The notes beneath the pieces are model-generated. The model did no database searches. It saw nothing but the letters and a program-made list of their open reading frames with translations, and had not been told where the DNA came from. Position numbers and translations under genes: made by a program. From the NCBI GenBank assembly GCA_947474225.1, contig CANJHS010000006.1, positions 1 to 64,000 on the forward strand: 64,000 nucleotides of DNA. The letters run 5' to 3'. The stretch comes from Roseiflexaceae bacterium (GTDB taxonomy: Bacteria; Chloroflexota; Chloroflexia; Chloroflexales; Roseiflexaceae). Shown here piece after piece: positions 18,005 to 26,488 of this stretch (its first letter is position 1; each line of letters begins with the position of its first letter).

Positions 18005-18071
18005 TACTATCTACTCGCTGTTCACTACTCGCTACTATCTACTAGCTACTAACTACTCATTACTCATTATC
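18005..18071. repeat. Degenerate 7-bp tandem repeat array at the prfB 3' end
   Basis: Units of seven bases vary around CTACTCG, CTACTAT, CTACTAG and ACTCATT. The prfB stop codon (18062-18060) lies inside the array. Similar arrays with other unit sequences occur at 27661, 27824 and 57653. Confidence 0.8.
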
Positions 18072-19164
18072 CCGTCCCACATTCCAGCGCAAATACGCAT
18101 CGATGAACGGATCGAGATCGCCGTCCAGCACGCCTTGGACATTCGAGGTCTCGTGATCAGTACGGTGGTCTTTGACCAGGGTGTACGGGTGCAGGTAGAA
18201 GCTGCGCATTTGGCTGCCGAAATCGGCCTTCTGGAAAGCGCCCTTCAGGCGATCACGCTCTTCGCGCTGGCGCACCAGTTCGCGCTCGAGCAAGCGCCCA
18301 CGCAGCACCTTCATGGCGGTTTCTTTGTTTTGGATCTGCGAGCGTTCGTTCTGGCAGGTGACAACGATCTGCTCGGGCGTGCCCGGTTTGTAGGTCAGGC
18401 GCACCGCCGAGTCGGTTGTGTTGACGCCTTGGCCGCCATGGCCACCGGCGCGATAGACGTCGACGCGGATGTCTTCGGGCTTGAGGCTGACCTCCGGCGC
18501 ATCGTCGACTTCGGGCAGCACTTCGATCAGCGCAAACGACGTCTGGCGCGTATTGGCCGAGTTGAAGGGTGAGAGACGGATCAGCCGATGGACGCCGGCT
18601 TCGGCTTTGCAGAGGCCATAGGCGTAGTCACCGCGGATTTCGAGGGTGGCGCTTTTGATACCGGCTTCTTCGCCCATGGTCTGATCGACGAGGTGGCAGG
18701 TGAAGTTCCTTTTTTCGGCCCAGCGGGTGTAGGTGCGCAACAGCATCTCGGCCCAGTCGGCGGCGTCGGTACCGCCCATGCCGGCTTTGATGGATAGGAA
18801 TGCGTCGCGGTCGTCGTAGGGCCCGCTGAGCAAGACTTCGATTTCGAGTGCGTCGATGAGGGAGAGCAATGCGGCGTATTCGCTGTCGACTTCTGCAGCG
18901 AGCGAATCGTCGCCCAGTTCGGCGAATTCTGCGGTGGATTGCAGTCGTGCATCGACAGACGACCAGCGATTCAATTCGTTTTTGATGCGCGTCATGCGCT
19001 GCATCACCTGTTGGGCGTTGGTGGGGTTGTTCCAAATGTCGGGATCGGCAGCCTGCTGTTCGAGGGCGTCGAGCTGAATTTGTTTTGTTGCGAGGTCAAA
19101 GCCGCCCACGGACGCCGTCAAAGCGTTGCCGTAGGGTCTCCACTTCTGCGAGGGTAATAGCCAT
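18060..19164 (-). CDS. prfB: Peptide chain release factor 2, made by programmed +1 frameshift
   Basis: RF2 recognises UGA/UAA and frees the finished protein. The ATG at 19164 has AAGGA seven bases upstream and opens a 22-codon frame that ends in CTT TGA C (TGA at 19098-19096), with GGGCGG just before it. Shifting one base at CTT continues into the long frame at GAC (19097) and gives about 367 residues, the normal RF2 length. The GGQ peptide-release motif reads 'GGHGGQGVNTTDSAVRL' and the stop-recognition region is present. An unshifted reading from 19268 would give a wrong N-terminus. The stop codon lies in a 7-bp repeat array. Confidence 0.95.
19096..19110 (-). promoter_or_regulatory. prfB programmed frameshift site
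   Basis: On the minus strand GGGCGG CTT TGA C. The UGA is poorly read when RF2 is scarce, and the G-rich Shine-Dalgarno-like element promotes the +1 slip. This autoregulation is well established in other bacteria. Confidence 0.93.
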
Positions 19165-19206
19165 GAGCTGTTCCTTTCGATATCGTGTTCATTATAGAGA
19201 AATTGA

Positions 19207-19232
19207 GCGGGGCTTATTGCAATAAGCCCCGC
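19207..19232. repeat. 26-bp perfect palindrome centred on TTGCAA
   Basis: The arms are GCGGGGCTTATTG and its complement. It lies between aroF and prfB and is the same sequence family as the palindrome at 1644-1679. Confidence 0.7.
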
Positions 19233-19341
19233 CCCATAGCCCCAGCCTGCCCCCGGAACGGGGGGCATGCCGTGGGGCTATGGGTATGCCCCCGGTACGG
19301 GGGGCAGGCCGTGGGGCTATGGGCATGCCGTGGGGCTATGG
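19229..19341. repeat. G-rich direct and inverted repeats between aroF and prfB
   Basis: Three copies of GCCGTGGGGCTATGG (near 19268, 19309 and 19327) alternate with CCCCCGG(A/T)ACGGGGGGCA. An inverted copy (CCATAGCCCC) lies at about 19234. The block could fold into several alternative hairpins. It lies in the minus-strand gap after aroF, upstream of prfB. Confidence 0.75.
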
Positions 19342-19348
19342 TTCGACC

Positions 19349-20362
19349 TTAGACCGAGTGCAATACCCCAGCCAGGGCATTGATGCGGGGCATCAGGGAT
19401 GCGAAGTTTTCGAGGGTCAGTGATTGTGGTCCATCCGAGGTGGCTTTATCAGGATCGGGGTGAACTTCGATCATCAGACCATCGGCACCAGCGGCGAGGC
19501 CAGCCAGCGCCAACGGTGCGACCAAGTACCATTTGCCGGTGCCGTGCGATGGGTCGACGATGATGGGCAGATGGGTGCGCTTTTTGCCCAGTGCAACGGC
19601 ATTGAGGTCCATCGTGTTGCGGGTAGCCGTCTCAAACGTACGAATGCCGCGCTCGCACAAAATCACGTTGTGATTGCCCTGGTTCATGATGTACTCAGCC
19701 GACAACATCCATTCTTCGAAGGTGGCAGACAGACCGCGCTTGAGCAAAACCGGTCGATGCGAACGACCCACTTCCTCCAGCAATTGATAGTTTTGCATGT
19801 TGCGCGCACCGATTTGCAGGAGGTCGGCGTATTCGCCGACCAGGGCCACATCGGTCGGGGTCATCACCTCGGTGACGATGGGCAAGCCGGTCTCGGCGCG
19901 GGCTTTGGCCATCAGTTTGAGGGCTTCTTCGCCCATACCGCGGAAGCTATAGGGCGACGATCGGGGTTTGAACGCCCCACCGCGCAACATATGTGCACCG
20001 GCTTTTTTGATGGCATGGGCCACCGTCATAATCTGTGTCTCGGATTCGACGGCACAGGGACCGGCCATGACGACCGCAGAGCCACCGCCCACCATGACAC
20101 CACCGACGTCGACAATCGTGTCGCGTGGGTGGAATTCACGGGTGGCCAGTTTGTACGGGCGCGAGATACGCACCACTTCGCGCACGCCCGACATACTCTC
20201 GAGCATCTCTTGCAGTTGCGGTGGAATGGGGGTACCGACGATGCCGATGATGTTTTGCGATTCACCGACGGTGACACTGCCGCGTAGCTTGAATCCTTCG
20301 ACACGCGCCAACACGGCGTCGAGATCAGCTTTGGTAGCACCGTTTTGCATAATGACGACCAT
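19349..20362 (-). CDS. aroF: 3-deoxy-7-phosphoheptulonate (DAHP) synthase, type I-beta
   Basis: 337 residues. It catalyses PEP plus erythrose 4-phosphate to DAHP, the first step of aromatic amino acid synthesis. A ferredoxin-like regulatory domain (1-70) is followed by the TIM barrel. Motifs: '[10 protein letters not shown]', '[17 protein letters not shown]', '[12 protein letters not shown]', '[15 protein letters not shown]', '[10 protein letters not shown]', '[12 protein letters not shown]' and '[17 protein letters not shown]', which contain the PEP/metal ligands of this class. AAGGAG precedes the ATG. It lies 45 bases downstream of aroH, so both genes are probably controlled by the Tyr/Phe attenuator at 20793-20931. 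Confidence 0.95.
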
Positions 20363-20407: not shown

Positions 20408-20776
20408 TTATTTGGCGAGGTCAGGACGCAACACCGTTGCGCCGCCGAGGTAGATATGCTTGACGTCCGCCTGTGCTTTGCTCGTATTCCAATGCAGAAT
20501 CAAGCGGATGCACATCGGCAACGCACCAGGAACGGTCATCTCGTGCGCGTTCATCAACGCGGTATCGGTGAAGCCGATTTTGCGCGCTGCCACTGCCGGG
20601 AACTCGGCATACAGGTCGGTCGTCGTCGTAAACCAGATGCTGGCGACGTCCGCAGGGACAATCCCGTTGGCAGTGATAACCGCCTGGAGCAGCGTTGTGG
20701 TCGCCTCGATGATGGCTTCACGGGTATTGCTCGCACAAGTAATTGCACCACGGACTCCGCGACAGGCTATCGTCAT
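20408..20776 (-). CDS. aroH: Chorismate mutase, AroH (trimeric) class
   Basis: 122 residues, the full length of the AroH family. It converts chorismate to prephenate, the branch to Tyr and Phe. Active-site residues are visible: Arg in 'RGVRGAIT', Glu in 'NAHEMTVPGAL', Arg in 'CIRLILHW' and Tyr in 'HIYLGGATVLRPDL'. GAGGAG lies six bases before the ATG. It is the first gene of the aroH-aroF operon. Its leader carries a Tyr/Phe-rich peptide and an intrinsic terminator just before the ribosome site. A broken second copy of the 5' two thirds lies at 23005-23259. Confidence 0.93.
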   Translation of the reverse strand: MTIACRGVRGAITCASNTREAIIEATTTLLQAVITANGIVPADVASIWFTTTTDLYAEFPAVAARKIGFTDTALMNAHEMTVPGALPMCIRLILHWNTSKAQADVKHIYLGGATVLRPDLAK

Positions 20777-20792
20777 TGATTGCTCCTCTATA

Positions 20793-20828
20793 CAACAAAA
20801 CCGGCGGGAGGTTGTGCCTCTCGCCGGT
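20793..20828 (-). terminator. Attenuator terminator upstream of aroH
   Basis: On the minus strand the stem ACCGGCG + GAGG pairs with CCTC + CGCCGGT (one internal mismatch, loop CACAA), followed by TTTTGTTG. It sits between the leader peptide stop and the aroH ribosome site. The stem is conserved in the second copy at 23276-23311. Confidence 0.85.
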
Positions 20829-20853
20829 CATATACACGTTTGTTCGTGTCAGT

Positions 20854-20931
20854 TCATGGCGAAACAGCCGGACTCAGTTGTGAGCCGGTAAAATAATAGC
20901 CATAATAGGTTGTCGTCTGCATTGGGTGCAT
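20854..20931 (-). CDS. Tyr/Phe-rich leader peptide of the aroH-aroF operon
   Basis: A 25-codon frame, too short for normal ORF calling. GAGG lies six bases before the ATG at 20931. The peptide contains YYGYYF, coded TAT TAT GGC TAT TAT TTT: four Tyr codons and one Phe codon in six positions. The second copy at 23337-23414 has three base differences in the frame; two are silent (one Tyr codon TAT to TAC, one Leu codon) and one changes residue 3. The stop lies 26 bases before the terminator stem. In the classic scheme, a ribosome waiting for Tyr-tRNA at these codons would free TCGCC (just before the stop) to pair with GGCGA of the terminator's 5' arm, letting transcription reach aroH. That pairing is my inference. 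Confidence 0.8.
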   Translation of the reverse strand: MHPMQTTTYYGYYFTGSQLSPAVSP

Positions 20932-20957
20932 CAACTGCCTCGATTACTGATGCGTGC

Positions 20958-20986
20958 ATGATACGACGAAATCAGGCACCCGTCAA
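20958..20986 (-). promoter_or_regulatory. Promoter of the leader-aroH-aroF transcript
   Basis: TTGACG (20986-20981) and TATCAT (20963-20958) are 17 bases apart on the minus strand, 27 bases before the leader start. The second copy has an identical -35 and TACACT at the same spacing. Confidence 0.75.
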
Positions 20987-20991
20987 ATGGT

Positions 20992-21020
20992 TTGCAATTC
21001 ACTACCCGCTATGCTACGAT
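20992..21020 (+). promoter_or_regulatory. Promoter of tRNA-Val copy 1
   Basis: TTGCAA, 17 bases, TACGAT, with the tRNA starting 11 bases later. It is divergent from the aroH leader promoter. The second copy reads TTGTAA, 17, TACTAT. Confidence 0.7.
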
Positions 21021-21030
21021 AAAGTCGTTC

Positions 21031-21107
21031 GGGCGTTTAGCTCAGTTGGTTAGAGCGCATCCTTCACACGGATGAGGTCGGTGGTTCGAGCCCACTATCG
21101 CCCACCA
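21031..21107 (+). tRNA. tRNA-Val (anticodon CAC), copy 1
   Basis: 77 bases with an encoded CCA end. Acceptor GGGCGTT pairs with ATCGCCC (one mismatch), the D arm is GCTC-GAGC, the anticodon stem CATCC-GGATG encloses loop TTCACAC, the variable loop is AGGTC, and the T arm contains GTTCGAGCC. The anticodon CAC reads GTG (Val). An apparently identical copy lies at 23516-23592. Confidence 0.95.
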
Positions 21108-21478
21108 TTTCCCCCTGGCTGTCAGTGACAGTCAGGGTGTTTTTGTGTCAACTGCGCTACAATTCATGCACTGCCTTATTCGGGCATATGCACAACTGCA
21201 TGTTTCAATGATTGCACAGACGCGAGAGCGGGAACTCCCATGGGCCGAGATTCGTCTCTTAGACGTTCGTACCAGCTTTTCCTTACGTGTATGTCTCACA
21301 AGATTCACCACGCACAGGCGGAACGGCTACTGTTCATGGAAACGAATACCACGCCATGCGTGCGGACCCATTCCCCTCAATGATTCCTTCGATGAGCTCA
21401 GGATCATTTTCTTGCATGCAGTCAACGTACCTACCCACCCGGCAGCGTCGCACATGCAAATCACAAAAGAAGTACCAG
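21108..21478. other. Gap after tRNA-Val; terminator, no gene
   Basis: At 21113-21144 a hairpin (CCCTG.CTGTCA paired with TGACAG.CAGGG) followed by TGTTTTTG ends the tRNA transcript. The remaining 330 bases have only short open frames without ribosome sites. I see no repeat here and no match to the matching place in the second duplicated copy. Confidence 0.6.
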
Positions 21479-22870
21479 ATGCGCAATAAACACGTGACCC
21501 GCCGTTCTTTTTTGCAGCTCAGCACCATGAGCATCGTCCTTGCAAGTTGCGCAGCAGCAGCAACCAGCGCACCACAGGTGCATCTCAAAGGTGCAGCCGC
21601 AAGCGTGGATGTCATCGTCATTGGCGCGGGGATAGCTGGATTAGCAGCAGCCCGCGACCTTGTGGCAGGCGGCAAATCGGTACGCATCCTCGAAGCACGT
21701 GACACGGTCGGTGGCAGGATTCGCACCAATCGAAGCTGGGGCAAGCCCGTTGAGCTCGGTGCACAATGGATCGAAACAGCCACCGGCAATCCGCTTGTCT
21801 CCCTCGCCAAAAGCGCCGGCGTGACAACGACTGCTGATCCCGAAAACGGCAACGAACGCTACATCGACACTCAAACCCCCGAGCAACTCAGTGGGACCGC
21901 GATTGATGACCTCTACACGCTCGCCGATGATATCATCAGCGCGGCCATCGATAGTGCCGGCGGCACCGACAAATCCCTCCGCGCCGCAATCAATCAGGTC
22001 CCTGCATACAAAAGCCTCAATGCAGCACAGAAACGTCGTATCGAAAGTATGTTTGCGCAGGTGATTGACGACGACGACGCCGTCGAAGCAGAGCTCCTCT
22101 CGCTGAACAACTATGACGAAGGTATCGACGCCTACCGGGGCGGCAATCTCTTTGTCAATAACGGCTACGAGGGTATCCCGCAATATATGGCGAAAAATCT
22201 GACCATTGAATACAACATCAGCGTAAATCGTATCGCCACCGACGCAACCGGGGTGACGGTCAGCGCCGGATCGAAAACATGGCGTGCCGGTGCAGTCGTC
22301 GTAACCGTACCATTAGGCATCCTCAAAGCAAACACCATCACCTTCAGTCCTGCGTTGCCTGCAGCGTACACGGCAGCCATCGGCAAACTTGCGATGGGGG
22401 TGCTCGACAAATGTATCCTCAAATACGACACGGCATTCTGGGGGACGAGTGCCGACACCTTCACTATCGTGGGCACAGACCCGCACGAGTTTTATCAATT
22501 TATCCCGCTCAACAAAGCGGTAGGACTACCCGCACTGGTCGCCTTCAATGCAGGCAGCCGAGCCCGCGCACTCGAGGCTAAATCGGACGCACAACTCCAG
22601 ACGCAGATGGCCACCATTATAAACAAAGCCTTTGGCGTCAACAAAACCCCGACAGGGATTATTGCGACACGCTGGGGACGTGATCCCTACGCCCTCGGTT
22701 CGTATTCGTACATCCCCGTCGGCGGATCAATCCAAGCCCGCCGCACGCTGGCAACACCGGTCAATACTCGCCTGGTCTTTGCCGGAGAAGCCTACACGGA
22801 ATCCGACGCATCGACCGTCCACGGTGCCTATAACAGTGGCAAAGCCGCAGCCAAAGCACTGTTACGGTAA
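21479..22870 (+). CDS. Flavin monoamine oxidase-like protein, Tat-exported
   Basis: 463 residues. The N-terminus 'TRRSFLQLSTMSIVLASC' is a twin-arginine signal and offers a lipid-anchor Cys, so the folded flavoprotein is probably exported and membrane-anchored. FAD binding: 'VIVIGAGIAGLAAARDLVAGG' and 'VRILEARDTVGGRIRT'. The substrate/FAD end reads 'VFAGEAYTESDASTVHGAYNSGKAAA'. The central 'AVVVTVPLGILK' is typical of MAO/polyamine oxidase-like enzymes. It probably oxidises a primary or secondary amine to an aldehyde or imine, making peroxide. I chose the ATG at 21479, the start of the Tat signal. A 5'-truncated, frameshifted paralogue lies at 25017-25845. Confidence 0.85.
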   Translation: MRNKHVTRRSFLQLSTMSIVLASCAAAATSAPQVHLKGAAASVDVIVIGAGIAGLAAARDLVAGGKSVRILEARDTVGGRIRTNRSWGKPVELGAQWIETATGNPLVSLAKSAGVTTTADPENGNERYIDTQTPEQLSGTAIDDLYTLADDIISAAIDSAGGTDKSLRAAINQVPAYKSLNAAQKRRIESMFAQVIDDDDAVEAELLSLNNYDEGIDAYRGGNLFVNNGYEGIPQYMAKNLTIEYNISVNRIATDATGVTVSAGSKTWRAGAVVVTVPLGILKANTITFSPALPAAYTAAIGKLAMGVLDKCILKYDTAFWGTSADTFTIVGTDPHEFYQFIPLNKAVGLPALVAFNAGSRARALEAKSDAQLQTQMATIINKAFGVNKTPTGIIATRWGRDPYALGSYSYIPVGGSIQARRTLATPVNTRLVFAGEAYTESDASTVHGAYNSGKAAAKALLR

Positions 22871-22938
22871 TGCGTGTCACGGTATTGCGTCGAACCCCAG
22901 GGTGGACTACTCTCGTGCTCTAGGCGAAAGGTTGAACT

Positions 22939-23007
22939 ATGTATTTATCCCCAAAATTTGATGCTGCGCTCACCTACGCCACGCATATCCATGCCCATCA
23001 ACAACGC
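22939..23007 (+). pseudogene. 5' fragment of the HD phosphohydrolase gene
   Basis: The first 23 codons match the intact gene at 25916 ('MYLSPKFDAALTYATHIHAHQQ' style opening, including its upstream GAAAGG site). At 23001-23008 the sequence switches into an inverted aroH fragment at a short shared CAAC.CGCA. It marks the join of a tandem duplication. Confidence 0.85.
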
Positions 23008-23259
23008 ACCAGGAACGGTCATCTCGTGGGCGTTCATCAACGCGGTGTCGGTAAAACCGATTTTGCGCGCTGCCACTGCCGGAAACTCGGCATACAGGTC
23101 GGTCGTCGTCGTAAACCAAATGCTGGCTACGTCCGCAGGGACAATCCCGTTGGCAGTGATAACCGCCTGGAGCAACGTTGTGGTCGCCTCGATGATGGCT
23201 TCACGGGTGTTGCTCGTACAGGTAATTGCACCACGGACTCCGCGACAGGCTATCGTCAT
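23005..23259 (-). pseudogene. Truncated aroH copy
   Basis: The first 85 or so codons of chorismate mutase are present, nearly identical to the intact copy (for example CTSNT for CASNT). The gene breaks after 'NAHEMTVPGAL', losing the Arg of 'CIRLIL' and the C-terminal 'HIYL...RPDL'. An open frame runs on for 18 unrelated codons to 22945. It should be inactive as an enzyme, but its leader peptide, terminator and promoter are intact. Confidence 0.88.
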
Positions 23260-23275
23260 TGATTGCTCCTCTGTA

Positions 23276-23311
23276 CAACAAAACCGGCGGGAGGTTGTGC
23301 CTCTCGCCGGT
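23276..23311 (-). terminator. Attenuator terminator upstream of the aroH fragment
   Basis: Same stem, loop and T-rich tail as 20793-20828. Confidence 0.8.
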
Positions 23312-23336
23312 CAGATACACGTTCGTTCGTGTCAGT

Positions 23337-23414
23337 TCATGGCGAAACAGCCGGACTCAATTGTGAGCCGGTAAAGTAATAGCCATAATAGGTTGTCGTC
23401 TGCATATGGTGCAT
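23337..23414 (-). CDS. Tyr/Phe-rich leader peptide, second copy
   Basis: 25 codons, preceded by GAGGGG at the same six-base spacing. YYGYYF is kept, with TAC replacing one TAT. A promoter (TTGACG, 17 bases, TACACT) lies upstream at about 23445-23473 on the minus strand. It now leads only into a broken aroH, so any remaining role would be as a short attenuated RNA. Confidence 0.72.
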   Translation of the reverse strand: MHHMQTTTYYGYYFTGSQLSPAVSP

Positions 23415-23476
23415 CAAACGCCCCTCGTCCACTGATGCGTGAAGTGTACGACGAAAATCCCCACCCGTCAAATGGT

Positions 23477-23505
23477 TTGTAATTCACCAAGCGCAATGCT
23501 ACTAT
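23477..23505 (+). promoter_or_regulatory. Promoter of tRNA-Val copy 2
   Basis: TTGTAA, 17 bases, TACTAT, 10 bases before the tRNA. Confidence 0.7.
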
Positions 23506-23515
23506 CTACGTGTTA

Positions 23516-23592
23516 GGGCGTTTAGCTCAGTTGGTTAGAGCGCATCCTTCACACGGATGAGGTCGGTGGTTCGAGCCCACTATCGCCCACCA
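23516..23592 (+). tRNA. tRNA-Val (anticodon CAC), copy 2
   Basis: I see no difference from the 77-base copy at 21031-21107, including the encoded CCA. The sequence beyond the CCA is unrelated to that of copy 1. Confidence 0.95.
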
Positions 23593-23724
23593 TTCCCACC
23601 ATGTACACGCCGAGAATGCTCCCGAGATGTACGAGGGCTTGCGTATCAAACGCGATGAGTTCTTGGCTGTCACCATGCACTGGTAGGCCACCACGCAGCG
23701 CACTGTCAACAGAGAGGCGAACCC

Positions 23725-24549: not shown

Positions 24550-25020
24550 ATGCAACGAATTGTGGTGATTAGCGGAGCTGGCAGTGGGATTGGCGCAGCG
24601 ACCGCAGTGCGCTTTGCCGCCCAAGGCGATACCGTCATCTTGCTGGGGCGGCGCCCAGATGCACTCAACGACGTGACACAGCAGTGTGACGGGCAAGCCG
24701 TAACTATCCCGTGCGATGTCAGCAACACCGAGGATGTCGCCCGGGCAGTTGCCCAGGTACAGGCCCATTCCGCCACATCGATGTACTGGTCAGTGCGGCC
24801 GGTACCAATCTGCCCGATCGTGCCGTGTCACAACTTACGCCGGCATCGTGGCAGATGATGATTGATATCAACATGACCGGGGCATTCTATCTGATTAGCC
24901 AAGCCATCCCGCTCTTGCGCACCGCCAAAGGCGTGATCATTGCGATTGGCTCGACATCGGTACCACGCCCGAGTAGTCTCGGCGGTGCCTCCTATAATGC
25001 AGCCAAAAGCGGCGTGTCGA
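24550..25020 (+). pseudogene. Broken short-chain dehydrogenase/reductase
   Basis: The start 'MQRIVVISGAGSGIGAATAVRF' carries the TGxxxGIG-type NAD(P) site. Near 24765 the frame changes (end of 'VARAVAQVQAH', continuing in another frame as 'HIDVLVSAAGTN'). The second part keeps 'NMTGAFYLISQ' and the catalytic YNAAK, then stops being SDR at about 25018, where amine oxidase sequence begins. Roughly the last 90 residues are missing. So it has one frameshift plus a 3' truncation. Confidence 0.85.
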
Positions 25021-25845
25021 AAGTATGCTGGCCCAACTTATCGACGACGACGATGCCGTCGAAGCAGAGCTCCTGTCGCTCAACAACTACGACGAGGGTA
25101 TCGATGCCTACCGCGGCGGTAACCTGTTTGTCAATAATGGCTATGTAGGTATTCCGCAGTTTTTGGCGAAAACGCTGACCATTGAGTACAACATCAATGT
25201 CACGCGGATCGCCACCGACAGCACTGGCGTGACGGTTACTGCTGGCACCAAAACATGGCGTGCAGGTGCAGTCGTCGTGACGGTCCCCCTCGGCATCCTC
25301 AAAGCCAACCGCATCACCTTTAGCCCTGCGTTGCCCGCTGCCTACACCAACGCTATCAAACAGCTCGCGATGGGCGTGCTCAACAAGTGCGTGCTGCGCT
25401 ACGACACGGCGTTTTGGGGCACTGCGACCGATACATTCACCATCGCGGGTAGTGACCCGCACGAGTTTTATCAATTCATCCCCCTCAACAAACCCGTCGG
25501 CATCCCTGCACTCGTAGCGTTCAACGCTGGGAGTCGTGCCCGGGCCCTCGAGACCAAAAGCGATGCGCAGCTCCAGCCCAGATGGCAGCACTGGTCAATA
25601 AGGCATTCGGTGTCACCAAAACGCCGAGCGCTATCATCGCGACGCGCTGGGGACTCGACCCCCACAGCCTCGGGGCGTACTCGTACATCCCTGTCGGCGG
25701 TTCGATCCAGGCACGCCGTACGTTGGGGACTCCCGTCAACGCGCGCTTGGTTTTTGCGGGTGAAGCATACACCGAGCGCGATGCTTCAACCGTGCACGGC
25801 GCTTACAACAGCGGCAAAGCAGCCGCCAAAGCACTGCTCCGCTGA
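25017..25845 (+). pseudogene. 5'-truncated, frameshifted amine oxidase paralogue
   Basis: It matches the intact gene from 22041 onward, beginning at the shared TCGAAAGTATG. The FAD-binding N-terminal half is absent. Near 25575 one base is missing (CAGCTCCAGCCCAGATGG against CAACTCCAGACGCAGATGG), moving the reading into the frame of 25582-25845. Protein identity to the intact copy is roughly 85 percent by eye, clearly lower than that of the duplicated aroH leader. Confidence 0.88.
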
Positions 25846-25915
25846 GTTCCGCAGATCGTATTGCGTCACACACCACAGTGGACTACACTCGGTGTATACG
25901 ACGAAAGGATGTTCC

Positions 25916-26488
25916 ATGTACTTGTCACCACTGTTCGATACTGCGCTCACCTATGCGACCCACATCCATGCCCATCAACAGCGCAAATCGACCGAAATCC
26001 CGTACATCACACATTTGCTCGGGGTGCTGAGCATTGCGCTCGAGTACGGTGCGACCGAAGAGGAAGCCATCGGTGCGCTCCTCCATGACGCAGGCGAAGA
26101 CGCAGGTGGCGAAGGTCGCATCGCCGATATCCGTTTGCGCTTCGGTCCTGCGGTGGCAGACATCGTCGCTGGCTGTAGCGACACGCTCGCAGAACACAAA
26201 CCCGATTGGCGCACCCGCAAAGAAGCCTACATCGCACATCTGAGCCATACCACACCGTCGATTCGCTTCGTGTCGTCTGCAGACAAACTCCACAATGCAC
26301 GTGCAATTCTGCGTGATCACTACCGAATTGGCGATGCCGTTTTTCTGCGATTTTCTGCTCCAAAACACGACACCATGTGGTATTACCGGTCATTGACCAA
26401 TGCCTTCAAACAGGCACAACCCCAGGGTGGCGCAGCGGAGCTGGTCGAAGAACTCGAGCGTACCGTAACCCTTCTCGAACAACGATAA
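25916..26488 (+). CDS. HD-domain phosphohydrolase (RelA/SpoT- or MESH1-like)
   Basis: 190 residues. The HD-fold metal residues are visible: His in 'TEIPYITHLLGV', His-Asp in 'GALLHDAGEDAGG' and Asp in 'SSADKLHNARAI'. The 'HDAGEDAGG' and 'ADKLHNA' blocks match the hydrolase domain of RelA/SpoT proteins and small alarmone hydrolases such as MESH1, so (p)ppGpp or a related nucleotide is a likely substrate. No synthetase or regulatory domain is present. The ATG at 25916 has AAAGGAT upstream. A longer frame running in from the amine oxidase pseudogene is spurious. The C-terminal helix is polar. Confidence 0.85.
   Translation: MYLSPLFDTALTYATHIHAHQQRKSTEIPYITHLLGVLSIALEYGATEEEAIGALLHDAGEDAGGEGRIADIRLRFGPAVADIVAGCSDTLAEHKPDWRTRKEAYIAHLSHTTPSIRFVSSADKLHNARAILRDHYRIGDAVFLRFSAPKHDTMWYYRSLTNAFKQAQPQGGAAELVEELERTVTLLEQR

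Follow-up and report, generated by a model that had tools for sequence, protein, structure and literature searches.

The window, that is, the whole 64,000-nucleotide stretch of Roseiflexaceae DNA analysed here, carries on its minus strand the genes aroH (20408-20776, start codon at 20774-20776) and aroF (19349-20362). The aroH product is a type I (AroH-class) chorismate mutase of 122 aa (PF07736, E 1e-43) with the solved homologues 1xho and 1com, and its nearest named relatives are metagenome assemblies labelled Chloroflexi and Roseiflexaceae. The aroF product is a DAHP synthase of 337 aa that matches PF00793 (E 2e-83) and PF18152 and has an N-terminal ferredoxin-like domain. These Pfam matches agree with the identities assigned to both genes in a preliminary description made from the DNA alone. 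The order aroH then aroF was found in every locus long enough to show it, truncated copies excepted. A family search detected one to four DAHP synthase family members per genome; the aroH-aroF operon is therefore not the sole source of a DAHP-type gene in most genomes.

Directly after aroF lies a release factor gene with PCRF and RF-1 domains, probably prfB (18060-19268, minus strand), and this gene order is kept in other species of the window's genus. A link between this gene and the TGA stop of the leader described below was considered and rejected, since many relatives have TAG or TAA as the leader stop. In the Chloroflexales genomes checked, pheA is located inside the leu cluster; the prephenate dehydratase gene adjoins leuA genes, apart from aroH-aroF, in all ten (L225, L231, L245; G000 contig C25). 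The same ten genomes were examined for leaders specific to other amino acids: trpE was not preceded by a Trp-rich one, and leuA was not preceded by a convincing Leu/Ile/Val one.

Upstream of aroH, also on the minus strand, inspection of the sequence revealed a sigma-70-like promoter with the -35 element TTGACG (20981-20986), a 17-base spacer and the -10 element TATCAT (20958-20963). It is followed by a ribosome site, GAGG (20938-20941), 6 nt before the ATG of a leader open reading frame of 25 codons plus TGA (20854-20931) encoding MHPMQTTTYYGYYFTGSQLSPAVSP. This frame includes the codons TAT TAT GGC TAT TAT TTT (YYGYYF; 20890-20907). Between the leader stop and aroH are a small hairpin, ACACGAACAAACGTGT (20834-20849), and an intrinsic terminator (20794-20828) made of a stem-loop (20800-20828) and the U-rich tract TTTGTT; the aroH ribosome site AGGAG is at 20783-20787. 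Every part listed in the preliminary description (promoter, 25-codon frame, GAGG, YYGYYF, stop, hairpin, terminator and aroH) was recovered where it had been placed. The promoter, which had been called near-consensus, has counterparts among the relatives: in 64 of 70 loci the 140 nt that precede the aromatic run contain the pattern TTGACD-17/18-TAY..T, where 0.1 would be expected. A clear SD-like 4-mer was present in only 37/70 leaders.

Conservation of the aromatic codon run

The upstream DNA of nearly all AroH-positive Chloroflexales was searched for the short frame with the most Tyr, Phe and Trp residues per ten codons. Such a frame with at least five aromatic residues in ten was found upstream of aroH in 69/73 Chloroflexales loci (second copies counted in), compared with 2% of dinucleotide-shuffled upstreams, so that a short leader with a run of end-product codons, as known from attenuators, precedes the aromatic-amino-acid structural genes aroH and aroF. 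Examples of the leaders are MQSRSTYYFWFWYFASSPRDWLLRVG, MAPSRHSFYFYFYFSQPHTAWSLRTV and MQSFNSYNSYAFFSSYFYYFSCHIELSLPTKD, with an internal ATG taken as the start of the first and the third. Lack of conservation of the Tyr/Phe codons in orthologous leaders had been named in advance as evidence against attenuation; the runs are in fact kept before aroH across the order. Both Tyr and Phe are present in the leader at 70/70 loci, and the runs of 43 representatives contain 141 Phe, 118 Tyr and 12 Trp codons. Third codon bases vary at the residues that are kept, while the choice among Tyr, Phe and Trp and the spacing within the run vary freely between leaders. In one related genus of the same family, the leader is degenerate at two loci (L193 and L194, in genomes G058 and G059), with at most three aromatic codons; both loci have kept the terminator, and their aroH frame is extended upstream by a long N-terminal part.

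Pairings and distribution of the leader RNA

Four segments of the leader RNA can form mutually exclusive structures. Segment 1 (CCGGCTCA, 20881-20888) comes directly after the last control codon and pairs with 20868-20876, the first portion of segment 2 (20858-20876), which overlaps the last leader codons. The remainder of segment 2 (20858-20868, GCTGTTTCGCC) pairs with segment 3 (GGCGAGAGGC, 20816-20825), which is at the same time the 5' arm of the terminator, so that the 2:3 antiterminator and the 3:4 terminator, placed between the leader and the first structural gene, exclude each other. The 1:2 hairpin adjoins the control codons; it had been missed in the preliminary description, and it makes the layout a classic four-segment one. 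In folds of the window sequence the terminator has an energy of -22.0 kcal/mol (z -4.8), the 2:3 duplex -18.8 kcal/mol (10 bp, segment 4 absent) and the 1:2 hairpin -11.1 kcal/mol. Folding of the two exclusive structures had been proposed as a check, and the core pairing put forward for the antiterminator, TCGCC (20858-20862) with GGCGA (20821-20825), can indeed form. The small hairpin between them (ACACG...CGTGT) is present as described, but its sequence is not conserved and it sits inside the antiterminator loop.

Covariation was analysed in an alignment of the 43 representatives. The following shuffle counts, like the results of swapping, are inflated by shared ancestry, close relatives having both sides of a helix in common: the 3:4 terminator has 90% of its cells paired and 61 compensatory cells, with 0/500 shuffles as high; the 2:3 antiterminator has 86% of cells paired and five pairs with changes on both sides, and 0/500 shuffles equal it in pairing and in covariation score; and the 1:2 hairpin has 72% paired, 18 compensatory cells and 4 pairs changed on both sides, with 1/500 shuffles as high. 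The own-genome 2:3 duplex is stronger than the duplex of swapped partners, with the same reservation about ancestry (-20.6 versus -17.8 kcal/mol, permutation p 5e-5); it is weaker in the window's genus than in most relatives. Shifting the partner along the alignment by one, two or three columns lowered the pairing of 1:2, 2:3 and 3:4 alike. Compensatory changes in the sequences thus argue for 2:3 and 3:4 and, more weakly, for 1:2. A single position illustrates what is kept: at alignment column 62, the middle base of a TCG/TTG (Ser/Leu) codon near the leader end, there are 23 U-A pairs, 9 C-G pairs and 11 unpaired cases. The TCG/TTG difference in the leader tends to accompany a G/A change in the terminator arm, as would be expected if the RNA pairing, not the peptide, is maintained. 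The anatomy, its conservation and three alternative pairings with covariation are what we observe of the element.

A covariance model built from the representative alignment, which is usable for genome annotation, gave hits to the element in 74 of the 82 genomes from the Chloroflexales, always before aroH, and in none of the 76 from elsewhere in the class; for two of the 74 the leader is degenerate and the match weak. AroH was found in 75/82 Chloroflexales genomes, and of the eight genomes without the element, seven gave no aroH and one has the gene cut at its 5' end by a contig end. In the window's genome only two copies, both linked to aroH, scored well; a third, weak match was discarded as a bare hairpin without an aromatic frame.

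Outside the sampled Chloroflexales, the aromatic run was present in 15 of 60 other Chloroflexota upstreams. These 15 come from eight families outside the class, and every sampled member of those families has the run. A terminator follows the run at each of the 15 loci, aroF follows aroH in all, and their own 2:3 pairing beats swapped partners (p 0.002). With the covariance model, 12 of these 60 upstreams gave a match with E < 0.01, in each case on the coding strand; one of the 12 (L168) is not among the 15. In the remaining 25 families sampled from the phylum, no run reached five aromatic codons; L168, from one of them, has Tyr-Tyr-Tyr and a weak model match. The eight sampled genomes that carry aroH in two further families of the class to which Chloroflexales belongs lack the element, which leaves loss there or more than one origin as possibilities.

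Proposed control by ribosome position

The distance from the last aromatic codon to the stop is 9-15 codons across the representatives, and in the window the last aromatic codon stands immediately before segment 1. When a ribosome masking segment 1 was modelled with segment 4 unmade, 2:3 formed in 42/42 representatives; with the ribosome at the stop codon, 2:3 was blocked and the terminator formed, again in 42/42. Without a ribosome and with segment 4 unmade, 2:3 also forms in most representatives. For the full transcript at equilibrium, the terminator is preferred in 40/42 even with a stalled ribosome; switching must therefore be kinetic, as assumed for classic attenuators.

We are highly confident that the element is a ribosome-mediated transcription attenuator of aroH-aroF, for which we infer translation of the leader, charged Tyr- and Phe-tRNA as the signal, and the direction of control. 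Attenuation by the ribosome had been suggested for this locus beforehand, and the conserved aromatic runs, the occurrence in 74/82 genomes and the covarying 2:3 pairing all favour it. Transcription would start about 20 bases before the leader ATG. With charged Tyr- and Phe-tRNA plentiful, the ribosome would pass YYGYYF, reach the stop and cover segment 2; 3:4 would then pair, and the terminator would end transcription before aroH. A shortage of charged Tyr- or Phe-tRNA would stall the ribosome in the aromatic run, with segment 1 covered and segment 2 free to pair with segment 3 before segment 4 is made, which would allow read-through into aroH and aroF. For this, 2:3 would have to form first and persist after segment 4 has been made.

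Three other explanations were weighed against attenuation. Arrest by the nascent peptide, in which an aromatic peptide together with free Tyr, Phe or another ligand stalls its own ribosome and the hairpins follow the ribosome position, has a precedent in TnaC, whose peptide stalls its own ribosome with tryptophan. Aromatic residues are used by some arrest peptides, and what follows the run is often F-T-S/G. Arrest peptides have fixed residues, however, whereas here Tyr, Phe and Trp replace one another freely within the run and its spacing changes too; the F-T-S bases are the very bases required for segment 1, and the peptide tail changes along with the pairing, so that we regard arrest as quite improbable. 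It is highly improbable that the frame encodes a conserved small protein with a function of its own, the terminator merely setting a fixed expression ratio: the frame is conserved and probably translated, and in Sinorhizobium meliloti the leader peptide peTrpL has an action in trans (PMC7298713), but what is conserved here is codon class and RNA pairing, not residues, and a covarying 2:3 pairing would be needless for a fixed terminator. That a riboswitch, a T-box or a protein-binding antiterminator senses Tyr/Phe beside an incidental short frame is barely credible, as the aromatic run is the most consistent feature, no further conserved structure is seen and, although riboswitches and T-boxes both occur in Chloroflexi (PMC3766115), covariance models of the Rfam leader families and the T-box gave no relevant match in the window or at eight related loci.

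The Chloroflexota attenuator is itself widespread and, judged by its sequence, belongs by mechanism to the trp/phe type. It shares with E. coli pheL-pheA and trpL-trpEDCBA the control codons followed by 1:2, 2:3 and 3:4 pairings, with the terminator before the structural genes (PMC11802643); the E. coli systems differ in their genes and phylum, and no Rfam model matches the Chloroflexota locus. The aroR-aroF attenuator of Corynebacterium glutamicum (Neshat et al. 2014, as cited in PMC11802643; see also PMC4046766) is likewise a short Phe-Tyr-Phe leader before a DAHP synthase operon, at which stalling raises transcription. It differs in belonging to Actinobacteria, in its shorter run and in being reported as responsive to Phe, not Tyr. 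The Chloroflexota run is longer and mixed and, in the window's genus, rich in Tyr; it stands ahead of an aroH-aroF pair. The Acholeplasma uORFC-13-1 is also an upstream frame linked to Phe incorporation, beside a terminator before aroF; in contrast, it is limited to Acholeplasma and environmental sequences (24 representatives), concerns Phe and has no shown sequence relation to the present leader (PMC8632094).

The preliminary description regarded a Tyr-rich aroH-aroF leader as not commonly described in this phylum, and we likewise found no description of such an attenuator in Chloroflexota in full-text searches of openly available papers. A Chloroflexota case could be mentioned in earlier comparative studies of attenuation, such as those by Lyubetsky, Seliverstov and colleagues. 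Ribosome-mediated attenuation has been described best in Proteobacteria and Actinobacteria; the element would add Chloroflexota to these phyla, with an unusually clean comparative record of alternative pairings in over 80 leaders. A tentative proposal, on which we would not insist, is that an ancient Chloroflexota attenuator reads Phe and Tyr, and in some lineages also Trp, in one mixed run that was retuned towards Tyr in the window's genus. If so, shortage of any one of these amino acids would open the entry to the shikimate pathway; the element offers a testable case for the possible joint sensing of two or three amino acids by a single leader.

A second copy of the leader

The region 22991-23600 (minus strand) repeats 20508-21115 with 91.6% identity over 610 bp. 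Repeated are a tRNA-Val (plus strand), the promoter, the leader (23337-23414), the terminator and about 86 aroH codons, within a truncated aroH frame of 104 aa. The leader of the second copy is intact: from the run onwards, all its changes are synonymous. The truncated AroH is probably inactive, because it lacks the region that we take to hold Arg90 and Tyr108 of the Bacillus enzyme; the second copy would thus be a case of an intact attenuator driving a probable pseudogene. Two copies are also present in another species of the genus (G079, L038/L039), where one of them lies beside the same methyltransferase gene; this argues against an assembly error. A flavin amine-oxidase gene (21287-22870) is likewise accompanied by a second stretch (24996-25985), the two being 76% identical over 22019-23008 and 24996-25985, and the locus seems prone to duplication.
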